Assembly: GCF_900774055.1 (NCBI RefSeq)
Contig: NZ_CAAGSW010000002.1
Location: 372,001 to 436,000 of the forward strand
Reading direction: 5' to 3'
From: Methanococcoides sp. AM1
GTDB lineage: Archaea; Halobacteriota; Methanosarcinia; Methanosarcinales; Methanosarcinaceae
DNA length: 64,000 bases
Numbering within the stretch: the stretch's first letter is position 1; each line of letters opens with the position of its first letter. The position numbers were made by a program, and so were the translations under genes. Under the pieces are notes generated by a model. It did not search any database and was not told the origin of the DNA. It saw only the letters and a list, made by a program, of their open reading frames with translations. Shown piece by piece: positions 4,205 through 54,488 of this stretch.

Positions 4205-4246
4205 AGACATCCCGGAACAGCCGCCAAGCAAAGTGCCGGGATGTCT
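4205..4246. promoter_or_regulatory. Perfect 11-bp inverted repeat just before the CobN-like gene
   Basis: AGACATCCCGG at 4205-4215 and CCGGGATGTCT at 4236-4246 form a perfect stem with a 20-nt loop, ending 22 nt before the chosen CobN start. There is no T-run after it, so it is not an obvious terminator. It could set expression of the giant gene relative to the membrane genes, as an RNA stem or a protein-binding dyad. Confidence 0.5.
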
Positions 4247-4268
4247 TACACATTATCGGGTGGATAAT

Positions 4269-7200
4269 ATGCGAAATATAAGACATCAGTTATTGCTTTT
4301 AAGTGTTTTGATTTTACTGGCGATTTCGCCAGTGGTATCGGCAGAAGAACAGGTTACTAAGATCACTTACATCTCCTATGGTCCGAACGAAGCTTTAGAT
4401 ATGGCAAGTCAGACAAATGATTACAGTGATCTTATTGAGTATACTTTCATTGATTTCTCAGATTCAGGTCTAAGTGCTGATATGGTTGCTGCTGCTGAGA
4501 GTGGTTTCCTTGAAACTCAGGATGTTATTCTCTGTCAGGGTCTCTATGGTATCGTTTTTGAAAATTCAACGGTAAATGAGAGTTTGCAGGCAGCACACGA
4601 TAAGGGTACTGCCCTTTACAGCATAGAACCTATGGGCTATACACCTCCTGCTTACTTCGATTATAATTCCGATGGCAGTACAAATGATCCTGTTGCGAAC
4701 TATTATACCAACATGGACACTTCCGGAGAAGGTCTTGAGAATGCTGAAAACCTTCTTACTTATCTGACACTAAAGTCAAAGATCACTTACATCTCCTATG
4801 GTCCGAACGAAGCTTTAGATATGGCAAGTCAGACAAATGATTACAGTGATCTTATTGAGTATACTTTCATTGATTTCTCAGATTCAGGTCTAAGTGCTGA
4901 TATGGTTGCTGCTGCTGAGAGTGGTTTCCTTGAAACTCAGGATGTTATTCTCTGTCAGGGTCTCTATGGTATCGTTTTTGAAAATTCAACGGTAAATGAG
5001 AGTTTGCAGGCAGCACACGATAAGGGTACTGCCCTTTACAGCATAGAACCTATGGGCTATACACCTCCTGCCTACTTCGATTATAATTCCGATGGCAGTA
5101 CAAATGATCCTGTTGCGAACTATTATACCAACATGGACACTTCCGGAGAAGGTCTTGAGAATGCTGAAAACCTTCTTGTCTACCTTGCAACAGAGTGCCC
5201 AACGCTTTCAAGAATGGCTATCATGGGCAATGAAGTAAACTTCAGTGAATTCGTATTTGTACTTGGTACAGACTTTAACGAGCTTTCTCTAACTAATGCT
5301 TCATTGGATACCAACATCTCATCTCAATTGAACATTACTATTTTCACAAAGGACAATCCTGTACCAGAAGAATTCGATTTCTCTAATTATGGAATGATCT
5401 TCATCGAGTCACAGGATGAGTCCGTGGTAAATAATTGGACATCGAGCATAAAGTCTGCCAAAACAGGCGGTGCAATGGTCATAGGCTATAATCTCTCCTC
5501 CAACATCACCCTGCCAAACGTTGACCTGTACACAACCGAATACACCGATATCGAGAGATACTGGGTGCAGGGTGGCGATGCAAACATGGGGAGCATGCTC
5601 AAATTCATGGGGCAGAATTTCTCCGGTTTATGGGAAGGAGAGGAGATTCCGGAACCTGAATTGCTGCGCCCAAAGATCAATATAACTTACATTATGAATT
5701 ATGGCACCGACAACCATTATCTTCTCAATGTTTTAGGCGAGAGAAGCGTAATCACTGATAGATTCAATGTCACCGTGATGGATGGAGCAGAAGCTGCTGC
5801 AAATCTTACCGATGTTTTAGATCAGGATGTTATCATATTGGGTATGATTGGTGGTGAGGAGTTTCCGGAGTTCAAGGACGCACTTCTTGTGGCCAAGGCT
5901 AATGGCACACAGATCGGGTTAATTGCCACGACCGATATGTACGGTGTCGGTAACATCAACATGACAATTCCACCACACAGTGCAATGGTAGAGTATCATA
6001 ATATTAGTGGATACACGAACATGGAGAACTGGATACGCTGTATCGGTTCAACCCTTGGGAATGCATATATCGAGTATTCCCCTGCCGTTTCTTCGTCAAT
6101 CCCCCTACAAGGTATCTACCACCCTGATGCCTTCCCGAGGATATTTGGGGACAGCACCGAATATCTCGAGTGGTATGCGGATAATGGGTATAATGAGTCC
6201 GCACCCACTATTGGCATCATCACTTATTCTATTGTGGGGGATCCTAAATTTACAGTCACAGATGATGCTGTAATCAGCTACCTTGAGTCCAAAGGGTGCA
6301 ATGTCATCTATACTACCAAGGAGGTATGTACTGGTGATGTGGATTATTTCATCAAAGATGGTGAAGTGCTCGTGGACTCCATCATTTCCCTGAAGGGTTT
6401 CTATCTCAATTATGATGATCATGAAGCGGGTGTGGAATATCTCAAGAGTTACAACGTTCCTGTACTCAAGGGAGCATTAGATGGTTCCAAAACACCCGAT
6501 GAGTACAATGCCAGCGTGCAAGGTTTGGATCTAATTTCCATAGCTTCCCAAGTAGCGCAGCCTGAAATCGACGGATGTATCGATTATATATGGATAGCTG
6601 GTCTGGTCACTGTGGGTGAGGGCTCTGATAAATATGAGTATTACAAGCCGATCATGTCACAGGTTGAATGGCTATGTGACCGTGCAATCGGATGGGCAGA
6701 ACTTGGAAATACCAATAATGCCGACAAGAAGGTCAGTATCATCTACTACAACCACGAAGGCGGTAAGAATAATATCGGTGCCAGTTACCTTGATATCGGG
6801 TCAAGTTTCACATTGATGCTTGAACAGATGCAGGCAGAGGGCTATGATATCGGAAATGGTAGTATTCCAAATGGAAGCGAATTCATCGACCTTTTCATTG
6901 AGAGCAGGAACGTTGGTTCATGGGCACCCGGTGAACTGGAGAAGGTTGTGAACTCCGGTAATGTCACCCTTGTATCAGTGGACGAGTATCTTTCCTGTTA
7001 CAATACCTTGCCAGAATCCGTGCGTGCTGAAGTTGAGGCTACATGGGGTCCGGCACCCGGTGACATCATGGTGTATGAAGGAAATTTTGTGATACCAAAG
7101 GTACAGTTTGGAAATGTCAATTTCATACCCCAACCGACCAGAGCCGGACTATCCGATGAATCACTCATATATCACAACGAGTCAATACCACCTACACATC

Positions 7201-9743
7201 AGTATTTAGCCACATACTTCTGGATCAACAACATTTATGATGCCGATGCACTGATCCACTTCGGTACGCATAGCACACAGGAATGGTTGCCCGGGAAAGA
7301 GGTCGGACTTTGGAGATATGACTATCCGGCTATTATGGTGGCTGACACTCCTGTGATATACCCATACCTGATGGACAATGTGGGTGAGGGTACACAGGCA
7401 AAGCGCAGGGGCAATGCTGTGATCATAGACCACCTGACACCGCCGATAGTGCAAGCAGGTATCTATGCTGAGCTGGCTATGATGCATGATAAGATGCATA
7501 ATTATGAAGATGCCAGGGATGCCAACAATACCGAAATGATGCAGCTTTATCGCAACAGTACCATCGAACTTTACGAAAGCCTCACGATGGAGAACGATCT
7601 TGGCGTAACTCCTGATGAACTCAGGGCAATGACTGAGGATGATTTTGGAACTTTCATTGGAAGCACTGTCCACAACTATCTGCATGAACTACAGGATACG
7701 CTCATGCCTCTTGGTCTCCATACATTCGGAGTTCCCCCTCAGGATTCAAAATTGGTCTGCATGGTCAAATCGATGCTTCGTAGCGATTTCATCGATCATA
7801 TCTACAACGTGATCCCGAAGGATACGGGAGATGAGGAGGATTGGGAAGATAACGCCAGTGTCTATGCAACCGAGCTTTTGAATGCGACGTTGCTCAATGG
7901 TACCAATGTTTCAACTGCCCAGATCGAGATCCTTAGTCTTACGGATGCGAATATCACTGCTGATCTAAACATGGCACTGAATTACTCCGGCCTCTTGAAC
8001 CAGACCACGCGTGAGATCGATCAGACGCTGCGTGCACTCAATGCGGAGTACATCGAGCCCGGGCCTGGAAACGATCCAATACGAAATCCCGAGGCTTTGC
8101 CAACAGGCAGGAATTTCTACAGTTTCGACCAGAGATTGATCCCTGATGCAGAGACCGAGACGATGGGAGCCATTCTTGCGGAACAGATGCTGGAACAGTA
8201 CAAGGCAACACACAACGGTACCTATCCAAACAAGGTGTGCTATGTCCTTTGGGCGACTGAGACAATGCGCCACAAAGGACTCATGGAAGCCCAGATATAT
8301 GCCCTTCTTGGAGTCGATATACACAGAGATACTGGCGGCAGGTTCTCATATTTTACTATAATCGACCAGGAGAACATGACTCATCCAAGGATCGATGTGG
8401 TTATCACACCTTCCGGACTCTATCGTGACACATACCCATTCCAGCTTGAAAAGATGGATGAGGCAATCCGGGAGGTTGCAGATCGCAATGAAACCAATGC
8501 GACAAACTATGTCAGATGGAATTCCCTGAAGATGGAGGATGCACTCATAGCCGCCGGATACAACAACACCACGGCACATGATCTATCCCAATGCAGGATA
8601 TTCACCGAGGCGCCGGGTGCTTACGGTACAGGTCTGCCGGAAGCCACATCCGCAAGTGACACCTGGGATAATGAGTCCGAACTTGCCGACCTTTACCTGT
8701 CACGTATGTCCAACATCTATGGCGCAGACATGTGGGGCGAGAGCTACGAGGATGTGTTCAGGTTGAACCTGATGGATGTGGATGCAGCCATACACAGTGA
8801 CTCGACAAACCTCATTGGAGTCATCGACAATGATGATTTCTTCCAGTACCTCGGAGGACTTGGGCTTGCGGTAAGATCATTGACAGGTGAGAATCCCGAG
8901 ATGTATATTGCAAACTTTGAAAATCCAGACAATCTTGAAATCATCACACTTCAGGAACACTTAAGGAAGGAGATGCGTTCAAGATACCTGAATCCGGCGT
9001 GGATCGAAGGTATGATGGGAGGCGAGTACGCGGGTGCAAGGGAGATGATGAAATTCACCGATAACATGTGGGGCTGGGATGCCATGATGCCAGACCTGAT
9101 CACGGATTCTGACTGGAAGGCGATATACGACATCTATGTTATGGATAAGTACGATCTTGGTCTGGATGAGTTCCTCAAAACCGAAAATCCATATCAATAT
9201 CAGTCCATAACTGCACGGATGATCGAAACCGCACGCAAGGATTACTGGGATGCATCTGACGAGGTTCTCCAGAACCTTGTGAAGGAATACGTTGAATCCG
9301 TGGTCAACGATGGTGTTACATGCTGCCATCACACCTGTGGAAATGCTCTGCTTGATGAGTACGTGCAGGGCATAATGTCAGTACCCGGCGTTGTCGACCA
9401 GGCAACCATCGATGAGTACAATAAGCTGATGCAGGAAGCCACACATCGTTATCCTGAAACCAGTGGCCCCAGTAGGAGCAGTTCGGACACACCTTCTGCA
9501 AACATAGTCAATAGCACAAGCACAAGCAATGATGCTACGGGTTATGGAACTGCTACCGATCAGCCAACAGATGCTTCACAGCAAAGCACACCAGACAACT
9601 ACGTTGAAGGTTATGAAATGACTCGTGAAAATACTCCGAAAGAGTCAGCTTCATCGTCCTTCTCAGGCTCTGATGTAATGGGGGCATTATTAGTCCTGGC
9701 ATCTGTGGGAATGATCTACTTTGGTTTCATGAGAAAGAAGTGA
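4269..9743 (+). CDS. cobN: Extracytoplasmic membrane-anchored CobN/BchH-like chelatase-family protein (1824 aa)
   Basis: I choose the ATG at 4269 because it opens a clean signal peptide (MRNIRHQLLLLSVLILLAIS, cleavage near VSA-EE); upstream GTG starts would bury it. Residues 31-163 and 171-303 are a nearly identical duplicated domain. More CobN/BchH N-terminal repeats follow to about residue 600. Large-subunit chelatase signatures include LIHFGTHSTQEWLPGKEVGL (about 995), GNAVIIDHLTPPIVQAGIY, IFTEAPGAYGTGLPE, and MWGWDAMMPDLI near the end with a CCHHTCGNALL cluster. After a Ser/Thr-rich linker comes one C-terminal membrane helix and RKK. Cytoplasmic CobN inserts cobalt into the corrin ring; this one is outside the membrane where ATP is absent, so binding, capture or remodelling of cobalamin/tetrapyrrole is more likely than ATP-driven chelation. 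It is the last gene of the DUF2162/ExbB/DUF2149 operon. Confidence 0.88.
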   Translation: MRNIRHQLLLLSVLILLAISPVVSAEEQVTKITYISYGPNEALDMASQTNDYSDLIEYTFIDFSDSGLSADMVAAAESGFLETQDVILCQGLYGIVFENSTVNESLQAAHDKGTALYSIEPMGYTPPAYFDYNSDGSTNDPVANYYTNMDTSGEGLENAENLLTYLTLKSKITYISYGPNEALDMASQTNDYSDLIEYTFIDFSDSGLSADMVAAAESGFLETQDVILCQGLYGIVFENSTVNESLQAAHDKGTALYSIEPMGYTPPAYFDYNSDGSTNDPVANYYTNMDTSGEGLENAENLLVYLATECPTLSRMAIMGNEVNFSEFVFVLGTDFNELSLTNASLDTNISSQLNITIFTKDNPVPEEFDFSNYGMIFIESQDESVVNNWTSSIKSAKTGGAMVIGYNLSSNITLPNVDLYTTEYTDIERYWVQGGDANMGSMLKFMGQNFSGLWEGEEIPEPELLRPKINITYIMNYGTDNHYLLNVLGERSVITDRFNVTVMDGAEAAANLTDVLDQDVIILGMIGGEEFPEFKDALLVAKANGTQIGLIATTDMYGVGNINMTIPPHSAMVEYHNISGYTNMENWIRCIGSTLGNAYIEYSPAVSSSIPLQGIYHPDAFPRIFGDSTEYLEWYADNGYNESAPTIGIITYSIVGDPKFTVTDDAVISYLESKGCNVIYTTKEVCTGDVDYFIKDGEVLVDSIISLKGFYLNYDDHEAGVEYLKSYNVPVLKGALDGSKTPDEYNASVQGLDLISIASQVAQPEIDGCIDYIWIAGLVTVGEGSDKYEYYKPIMSQVEWLCDRAIGWAELGNTNNADKKVSIIYYNHEGGKNNIGASYLDIGSSFTLMLEQMQAEGYDIGNGSIPNGSEFIDLFIESRNVGSWAPGELEKVVNSGNVTLVSVDEYLSCYNTLPESVRAEVEATWGPAPGDIMVYEGNFVIPKVQFGNVNFIPQPTRAGLSDESLIYHNESIPPTHQYLATYFWINNIYDADALIHFGTHSTQEWLPGKEVGLWRYDYPAIMVADTPVIYPYLMDNVGEGTQAKRRGNAVIIDHLTPPIVQAGIYAELAMMHDKMHNYEDARDANNTEMMQLYRNSTIELYESLTMENDLGVTPDELRAMTEDDFGTFIGSTVHNYLHELQDTLMPLGLHTFGVPPQDSKLVCMVKSMLRSDFIDHIYNVIPKDTGDEEDWEDNASVYATELLNATLLNGTNVSTAQIEILSLTDANITADLNMALNYSGLLNQTTREIDQTLRALNAEYIEPGPGNDPIRNPEALPTGRNFYSFDQRLIPDAETETMGAILAEQMLEQYKATHNGTYPNKVCYVLWATETMRHKGLMEAQIYALLGVDIHRDTGGRFSYFTIIDQENMTHPRIDVVITPSGLYRDTYPFQLEKMDEAIREVADRNETNATNYVRWNSLKMEDALIAAGYNNTTAHDLSQCRIFTEAPGAYGTGLPEATSASDTWDNESELADLYLSRMSNIYGADMWGESYEDVFRLNLMDVDAAIHSDSTNLIGVIDNDDFFQYLGGLGLAVRSLTGENPEMYIANFENPDNLEIITLQEHLRKEMRSRYLNPAWIEGMMGGEYAGAREMMKFTDNMWGWDAMMPDLITDSDWKAIYDIYVMDKYDLGLDEFLKTENPYQYQSITARMIETARKDYWDASDEVLQNLVKEYVESVVNDGVTCCHHTCGNALLDEYVQGIMSVPGVVDQATIDEYNKLMQEATHRYPETSGPSRSSSDTPSANIVNSTSTSNDATGYGTATDQPTDASQQSTPDNYVEGYEMTRENTPKESASSSFSGSDVMGALLVLASVGMIYFGFMRKK
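4359..5177 (+). repeat. Tandem 399-bp in-frame duplication inside the CobN-like gene
   Basis: Bases 4359-4757 and 4779-5177 are direct repeats offset by exactly 420 bp (140 codons). Reading base by base I find one difference, a silent C/T in the motif PPAYF. The 21-bp joint between copies is unique. The copies encode residues 31-163 and 171-303. Such identity at silent sites means very recent duplication or active gene conversion. Confidence 0.97.
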
Positions 9744-9956: not shown

Positions 9957-11117
9957 ATGATAACGGATCCAATTTGTAAAGCTCATGTAACTGAGAACAG
10001 TAATTATGTTACGAATTATGGCGGGAAGAAGTACTACTTTTGTTCTGCGGAATGCAAGAATAAGTTCGATCAACTGGAAAAGAGTGTAATACGCTTGAAG
10101 CGCAATATTGGTGAGCGCGAAAGGATCTCTTTTGGTAAGCTGAAAAAAGAGATCATAAATCTTGGGATCTGCACTTTGTGCGGTGCCTGTGTCTCTTCCT
10201 GTGAGTCTATAGCATTTGTGGGTAAGCAGCCTAAACTGATCGACAAATGTACTGCCTGCGGTGTCTGCTATAACCAGTGCCCGAGAACAGTTACAAGGGA
10301 AGAGGATCTTGTGGGAAAACTCAGGTTCGGATATGCTGCCAGATCTTCAATTTCCGGGTTTAAGGGCCAGGATGGTGGTGTTGTCACCTCCCTTCTTGCA
10401 TACGGGCTTGAGGAAGGCCTGCTGGATTGTGCCATAGTCACAAGGAGGTCGGACGATGATCCCTGGAAAGCTGAGCCTTTTATTGCAACTACTGCGGATG
10501 AACTCTTTGAGTCTGCCGGGAGTATCTATTCCCACAGCATGACCATGGAGCCTCTGATGAGTGCTATCAAGCAGGGTATGAGGAGCATTGCATTTGTCGG
10601 ACCGAGTTGTAATATCGATGCTGTCCACAAGATGCAGACAAGCCCCCACGGCTTTCTTCATCTCTTCCTGAGGGCAAAGGTCCTGAAGTTCGGTCTTTTT
10701 TGCATGGACAGCTTCGAGCACGAAGGTATCAAAGAATTTGTAGAAACACATGGAATGGACCTTAATGATATTGATTCAATGAAGATCCGTAAGGGTGTCT
10801 TCGAATTTGGCATGGCTGATGGTATAAAGAGCTATGATCTCTCAGAACTTGACCAGTACAGGTCTACCTCCTGCAAGTTCTGTACCGATATGGCTGCTGA
10901 GAACTCCGATATATCCTTCGGAGGCGTGGGAACACCGCAGGGCTGGAGCACTGTCCTGGCACGCTCATCTATAGGATAGGAGATACTCTGTGAAGCTATC
11001 GACAATGGCTACATCGAGGCAAGGCGTCTTGAGAAGAAGGAAATGGATCGTGCAGTAAATCTTGCAAAGATGAAGAAGGTACAGATGTATTCCCTGAATC
11101 GCAGGCAGAAAGCCTGA
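9957..11117 (+). CDS. YHS-domain/ferredoxin/FrhB-like F420 oxidoreductase subunit with in-frame UAG
   Basis: From ATG 9957 (GTG 9945 is also possible) the protein begins with a YHS/TRASH-like metal domain: DPIC, then GGKKYYFCSAECKNKF. Two 4Fe-4S motifs follow (CTLCGACVSSCES, CTACGVCYNQCPR), then the FrhB N- and C-terminal domains of F420-reducing hydrogenase/dehydrogenase beta subunits (KGQDGGVVTSLLAYGLEEG, FVGPSCNIDAVHKMQ, CKFCTDMAAENSDISFGGVG). At 10977-10979 an in-frame TAG interrupts the C-terminus. Translation stays open for 45 more codons to TGA at 11117 and reads as the usual family ending: after SSIG comes EILCEAIDNGYIEARRLEKK. I therefore annotate through the TAG, as pyrrolysine or other readthrough. 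Likely role: electron transfer between F420H2 and an iron-sulfur partner; the partner is unknown. Confidence 0.8.
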
Positions 11118-53937: not shown

Positions 53938-53981
53938 TCGTCACGGACTAAAAGGTTAGTGCCGTATTCAGGAGGTAAAAT

Positions 53982-54488
53982 TTGGATAAGATCGAGCAAC
54001 TCATCAAACTCCATCTGGAGATGGAACATCTCAAAAGAAAACTTGAGGGTAACATGACTGAGTGTTGCCTGGAAGATGAAGGTCGTACAAGTGCGCACAA
54101 AACCATGAACCGAGCCCTTCTCCTGATATAGAGGGAAGGCGAGATCATGCCTTCTACACTTGCCAGAATCCTTGATTTAAAAAAGAGCAGTGTTACCAGT
54201 CTTATCGATAACCTTGAGAAAGAGGGCTTTGTCTTTCGAAAAGATGATCCCTCTGATCGCAGGAAAGTCCTGATCTCTGTTACCGAAAAAGGCATTGAAC
54301 AGATCAGGAAGGTCTTCAACAAAATGCTTTCGGTCGTAAAAATGTGCATGGATGATATGGATGATGAAAAGCTTGACAAGATCCTTGATGCACAGCTTGT
54401 ATTGATCGAATTTCATCGTCATATGTACGATCGATCGGTCGAACTAGTCGATGAAAAATGTTCTCTTGAATCTAAAAATAAACAATAA
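53982..54488 (+). CDS. MarR-family regulator with in-frame UAG at codon 50
   Basis: TTG 53982 follows AGGAGGTAAAAT. The frame encodes MDKIEQLIKLHLEMEHLKRK, reaches TAG at 54129-54131 (after NRALLLI), and continues without a break as REGEIMPSTLARILDLKKSS, VTSLIDNLEKEGFVFRKDDP, SDRRKVLISVTEKG to TAA at 54488. The part after the TAG is the recognition helix and wing of MarR (D-x-x-D-R-R-K), and the part before it is the dimer helix, so only the whole frame makes a normal 168-aa MarR. ATG 54147 alone would lack the first half of the DNA-binding domain. Either UAG is read, as pyrrolysine in this group, or the gene is broken. It overlaps the transporter gene by one base. Confidence 0.85.

Follow-up and report, generated by a model that had tools for sequence, protein, structure and literature searches.

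Our analyses indicate that an in-frame UAG codon in a gene for an FrhB-like protein of Methanococcoides sp. AM1, located in the 64,000-nucleotide stretch of DNA that was analysed here (the window), is very probably read as pyrrolysine (Pyl), the 22nd amino acid, by tRNA-Pyl(CUA) and PylS, yielding a full-length protein of the FrhB family in which Pyl would most likely be a near-neutral replacement of tyrosine. On the comparative evidence presented below, we assign this reading a probability of roughly 0.88. In the proposed mechanism, PylS would charge tRNA-Pyl(CUA), the UAG at codon 341 would be decoded as pyrrolysine, and the product would be a 386-residue F420-dependent iron-sulphur flavoprotein. 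The codon itself arose within a single Methanococcoides clade, by a point mutation that changed an ancestral Tyr codon (TAT/TAC) to TAG. The coordinates of the relevant features are summarized in Table 1.

Table 1. Features of the window discussed in the text and the evidence on which their limits or interpretation rest.
Feature	Position in window	Strand	Basis
Full-length gene, YHS + 4Fe-4S + FrhB/FdhB-like F420 oxidoreductase	9957..11117	+	ATG 9957; TGA 11115-11117; orthologues span residues 1-386
In-frame TAG, codon 341, predicted pyrrolysine	10977..10979	+	Reading frame of ATG 9957
45 codons 3' of the TAG, to TGA (rest of helix 338-349, strand 353-357, C-terminal helix 360-385)	10980..11114	+	dN/dS; codon-position pattern; model
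YHS domain, residues 2-39	9960..10073	+	PF04945, E 2.8e-12
Two-cluster ferredoxin-like domain, residues about 66-111	10152..10289	+	Pfam match; invariant Cys
In-frame TAG within the gene of a MarR-like regulator (open frame 53979-54488), the second in the window	54129..54131	+	Comparison with relatives

Under the standard code the FrhB-like gene appears as an ORF of 344 aa (340 aa from the ATG) that is 46 codons short, and its product is 386 aa long when the UAG is counted as a residue. An earlier description made from the DNA letters alone (the sequence-only reading) had placed 45 sense codons and a TGA in frame after the TAG, an arrangement that we confirm, and the peptide that it gave for them (EILCEAIDNGYIEARRLEKK) is exact. 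Its claim that the C-terminus of the FrhB family continues past the TAG is borne out by the Pfam match to FrhB_FdhB_C (PF04432; residues 209-360, E 4.6e-41, over cut-off), which ends at residue 360 and hence leaves 19 residues of the domain 3' of the TAG. The last residue before the TAG is Gly340, and the predicted sequence across codon 341 is SSIG-Pyl-EILCEAIDNGYIDAR. To the earlier description we can add the N-terminal YHS domain and the ferredoxin-like domain, whose invariant cysteines are residues 72, 75, 78, 82, 98, 101, 104, and 108.

The protein also matches FrhB_FdhB_N (PF04422; residues 126-200) over the cut-off, and it belongs to the FrhB family by the presence of both FrhB_FdhB domains and by the FrhB fold (Foldseek matches to 9r51_B, 4ci0_C, and 6qgr_B). 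Its NCBIfam scores are far below the cut-offs for both frhB (186.8 bits; cut-off 331.5) and FpoF (123.3 bits; cut-off 475), which points to a separate FrhB-like subfamily. The nearest solved structure is 8riu_B (Foldseek E 2.9e-26, 33% identity), and the orthologue from M. vulcani SLH 33 is 96% identical. A conserved partner gene was not found in the loci that were compared. In the predicted model residue 341 lies inside a confidently predicted helix, and a product truncated at residue 340 would lose this helix, the strand, and the C-terminal helix that follow; the mean pLDDT of the model is 71, and its fine detail is therefore unreliable.

The codons 3' of the TAG evolve as coding sequence. 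Among the six TAG-containing orthologues, dN/dS is 0.033 after the TAG (45 codons) versus 0.046 before it (340 codons), with an equal dS of 0.72 on both sides; the variable columns 3' of the TAG are distributed over codon positions 1, 2, and 3 as 4, 2, and 26 (chi-square p 6e-8), and the alignment is free of gaps from the TAG to codon 385, with similarity ending near the TGA. As judged from these comparisons, purifying selection shows that translation proceeds beyond the TAG, and it is silent on the identity of the inserted residue. The codon-position pattern and purifying selection taken together rule out a premature stop with an untranslated tail. The sequence-only reading had retained a recent nonsense mutation as an alternative, and a decaying gene, or a pseudogene with an intact remainder, would account for a standard-code ORF that ends early. 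However, the TAG is older than the split of the six species, none of the six orthologues contains a frameshift or an extra stop, and the dN/dS comparison that the same reading had proposed reveals no decay in relatives; purifying selection after the TAG in six species excludes this alternative for practical purposes and leaves it a negligible probability. The presence of the TAG in six genomes likewise led us to reject a sequencing error as its source.

The history of codon 341 was traced by searching for orthologues in 111 Methanosarcinaceae genomes. One in-frame TAG is present in the orthologues of six Methanococcoides, including AM1, and absent from those of four others, the eleventh genome of the genus lacking a good match to the gene. 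As proposed by the sequence-only reading, homologues were aligned at this column, and every other Methanosarcinaceae orthologue that was scored has Tyr (TAT/TAC) there (66 rows, with some genomes duplicated between collections). Outside the family the residue is Leu (CTT) in Methanoperedens and Asn or Met in Asgard archaea. In a gene tree built with the TAG codon left out, the six TAG sequences form one group with 97/99 support, requiring one change. The single TAG group, along with the occurrence of Tyr elsewhere, points to a unique event in which the substitution of one base converted a Tyr codon to TAG, which was then kept. Synonymous distances among the six species reach about 1.

The comparison of the six species also bears on the possibility that Pyl341 has been selected for what it contributes, chemically or structurally, close to the F420/FAD site. 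At the 177 positions that are otherwise conserved, only five replacements are private to the TAG clade, and one of them, Asn345Cys, lies in the same helix as Pyl341, four residues downstream; this proximity, which is suggestive only, and the retention of the codon through six species would fit such a role. However, one neighbour beside four other private changes is weak evidence (the chance of this is about 0.1-0.2 by our own rough estimate), the retention is no stronger than that of an ordinary residue at the same dN, no conserved neighbourhood hinting at Pyl chemistry was found, and column 341 varies across the wider family. A selected role is therefore quite improbable. A more specific version, which is more doubtful still, is that the electrophilic imine of Pyl341 and the clade-specific Cys345, one helical turn apart, might form a reversible covalent link or tune substrate access. 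If true, a functional Pyl341 would be the first case in which Pyl has a selected role in anything other than methyl transfer. The variability of column 341 favours instead a near-neutral replacement, and by analogy with Thg1 of M. acetivorans the change from Tyr341 to Pyl is most likely of this kind and not a gain of function.

The AM1 genome contains the machinery needed for pyrrolysine decoding. The sequence-only reading had called for a search for pylS, pylT, and pylBCD, and PylS, a tRNA-Pyl with the anticodon CUA, and pylBCD were all found. The genes pylS, pylB, pylC, and pylD are consecutive and uninterrupted at positions 250036-254216 of contig C2 (C2:250036-254216), the latter three being identified by position and sequence alone, and PylS is present in all 11 of the Methanococcoides genomes. 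In AM1, one in-frame TAG is present in each of two mtmB copies and in each of two genes of the MttB family, as would be expected if Pyl decoding is functional. UAG 341 might instead be read by a different, near-cognate tRNA (for Tyr, Gln, or Lys), as comparative data are blind to the inserted residue, but the cognate tRNA-Pyl(CUA) and PylS would be expected to outcompete such near-cognates, making this highly improbable. The residue at position 341 is almost certainly Pyl, to the extent that gene content and conservation can identify it.

Further evidence is provided by the use of UAG as a stop codon, which was measured on stretches totalling 436 kb, or 17.5% of the genome. Of the frames that relatives conserve, some 400 are closed by TAA or TGA, with 183 and 213, respectively, containing no TAG at all. 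In a simple tally, made under the standard code, of ORFs reaching 200 aa, 4/286 ORFs from AM1 end in TAG, and the corresponding fractions in other Methanococcoides are 4/259 (G025), 4/270 (G020), and 7/243 (G017). The same count gives 12/81 for loci from Methanolobus/Methanohalophilus, 0/49 for loci from Methanosarcina, and about 15% for relatives that do not use pyrrolysine (16/103, or 15.5%, for Methanoperedens and 15.8% for Halobacteria). The vacating of UAG thus seems to differ by genus within the family (1-3% in Methanococcoides, 0/49 in Methanosarcina, and 12/81 in Methanolobus/Methanohalophilus). Of about 285 genes of AM1 judged to be real, only three end in TAG under that code, viz. 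the FrhB-like gene, a zinc-ribbon gene, and pylB. The frame of the zinc-ribbon gene continues in relatives, which have GAG at this codon, and it was counted as read-through. A further ORF with a terminal TAG, C2:342157-343167, lies opposite a conserved gene in antisense orientation and was not accepted as real, and TAG-containing frames such as C2:311163-312104, along with small ORFs, look antisense or non-coding and were left uncounted. In this genome UAG thus serves almost purely as a sense codon, and pylB is the sole clear place where it may still act as a stop. Because UAG is hardly a stop in the genus, a change from Tyr to TAG would have been tolerated and could be kept through six species.

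At C2:250828-253045 (- strand; L118:10828-13045), pylB ends in a TAG that sits one base 5' of the pylC start (TAG-G-ATG) in 4/4 Methanococcoides checked, and a terminal TAG in pylB has also been reported for M. burtonii, M. mazei, and M. acetivorans (PMC2933860). We considered pylB as a further case of read-through and rejected it, since the conservation past its TAG is that of pylC, in another frame. The persistence of a TAG-terminated pylB before pylC suggests that termination at UAG may persist. Read-through of pylB would append 42 residues overlapping pylC, possibly allowing the supply of Pyl to feed back on the operon.

Some termination would also be expected if the UAG of the FrhB-like gene were a leaky stop that yields functional forms of both 340 and 386 aa, in a ratio perhaps set by Pyl supply during growth on methylamines. 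AM1 has aRF1 (a single copy over the family cut-off), and a UAG introduced into a reporter in M. acetivorans yielded both products, most of it terminated and 20-30% full length (PMC2933860). Against two functional forms, the truncation would also remove the confidently modelled helix and strand of the FrhB domain, the near absence of TAG as a terminator in the genus makes strong termination at UAG unexpected, and RNA structure at the site was not seen. This reading is accordingly unlikely. The fold z-score for positions 10970-11080 is 0.21, with no PYLIS-like stem-loop found after the UAG, and a programmed RNA element was rejected for this reason. Such a stem-loop is an optional feature that is not regarded as required in archaea, and a dedicated RNA signal would be unneeded where UAG is scarcely a stop. 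We infer that the majority of ribosomes read through UAG 341 as Pyl, and competition from aRF1 may leave some of the 340-residue product. The sequence-only reading had offered Pyl near the C-terminus or a product of two lengths: the former is supported by the pyl genes, by selection, and by column 341, and the latter may hold as partial termination.

Several other observations were made on in-frame TAG codons and on the window. The TAG in the MarR-like regulator gene is common to G018, G025, and G019, is replaced by a sense codon (CGG) in G020, and is lacking in G021, a patchy distribution that contrasts with that of the FrhB-like gene. Two other genes, C2:140292-141071 (-) and C2:365747-367051 (+), contain an internal TAG in AM1 alone, the nearest relative having GAG and AAG; these are candidates for very recent changes from sense to UAG. 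A CobN-like membrane-anchored protein encoded at 4233-9743 (+) of the window has the block ITYISYGPNEALDMASQTNDYSDLIEYTF... twice near its N-terminus and is 1836 aa long; the versions in two relatives measure 1546 and 1542 aa.

The FrhB-like protein shares its fold with 8riu_B (the F420-reducing subunit of the CO dehydrogenase of Ca. Ethanoperedens), FrhB, FpoF, and Fsr, and the order of its ferredoxin and FrhB domains matches that of 8riu_B and FpoF. The subfamily differs from these proteins in its additional N-terminal YHS domain, in showing no partner gene that is conserved across the loci compared, and, in the Methanococcoides clade, in the UAG in its last domain. The FrhB-like gene has an in-frame UAG that is very probably decoded by tRNA-Pyl, as the UAGs of the genes for MtmB, MtbB, and MttB are; TAG-containing genes for MtmB and MttB occur in the same genome. 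In MtmB, MtbB, and MttB, Pyl is catalytic and conserved across each family, whereas relatives of the FrhB-like protein with Tyr, Leu, Met, or Asn indicate that Pyl is not a feature of this family. Kivenson et al. reportedly described in Science in 2025 an archaeal 'Pyl code', in which all TAG codons are read as pyrrolysine; the TAG-poor stop usage observed here fits such a role of UAG as a general sense codon in some Pyl archaea.

The gene is not named in the passages on predicted Pyl genes of three earlier papers (PMC3639795, PMC1242214, and PMC1914089). Our comparisons make it a well-supported new candidate for a Pyl protein outside the methylamine methyltransferases, or perhaps one that is already in the 2025 list. 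It represents a phylogenetically placed change from Tyr to UAG in a non-methyltransferase that has been kept through several speciations, and such a clean case is usable to test how freely Pyl spreads once UAG has been vacated as a stop. Standard-code annotation of Methanococcoides genomes shortens UAG-containing genes of this kind. The sequence-only reading had considered Pyl in an F420/iron-sulphur protein outside methylamine metabolism to be notable; this was an overestimate, as UAG hardly serves as a stop in this genus and a precedent exists in Thg1 (tRNA-His guanylyltransferase) of M. acetivorans. According to the passages on this enzyme in the cited work, its Pyl was shown physically and is not essential for activity (Heinemann et al., 2009; PMC2933860). 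As there described, Thg1 resembles the FrhB-like gene in having an in-frame UAG in a non-methyltransferase of one lineage, with an ordinary residue in relatives; the Pyl of Thg1 was observed in one species, whereas the UAG of the FrhB-like gene is fixed in the six species of a clade, with its reading as Pyl deduced by comparison.
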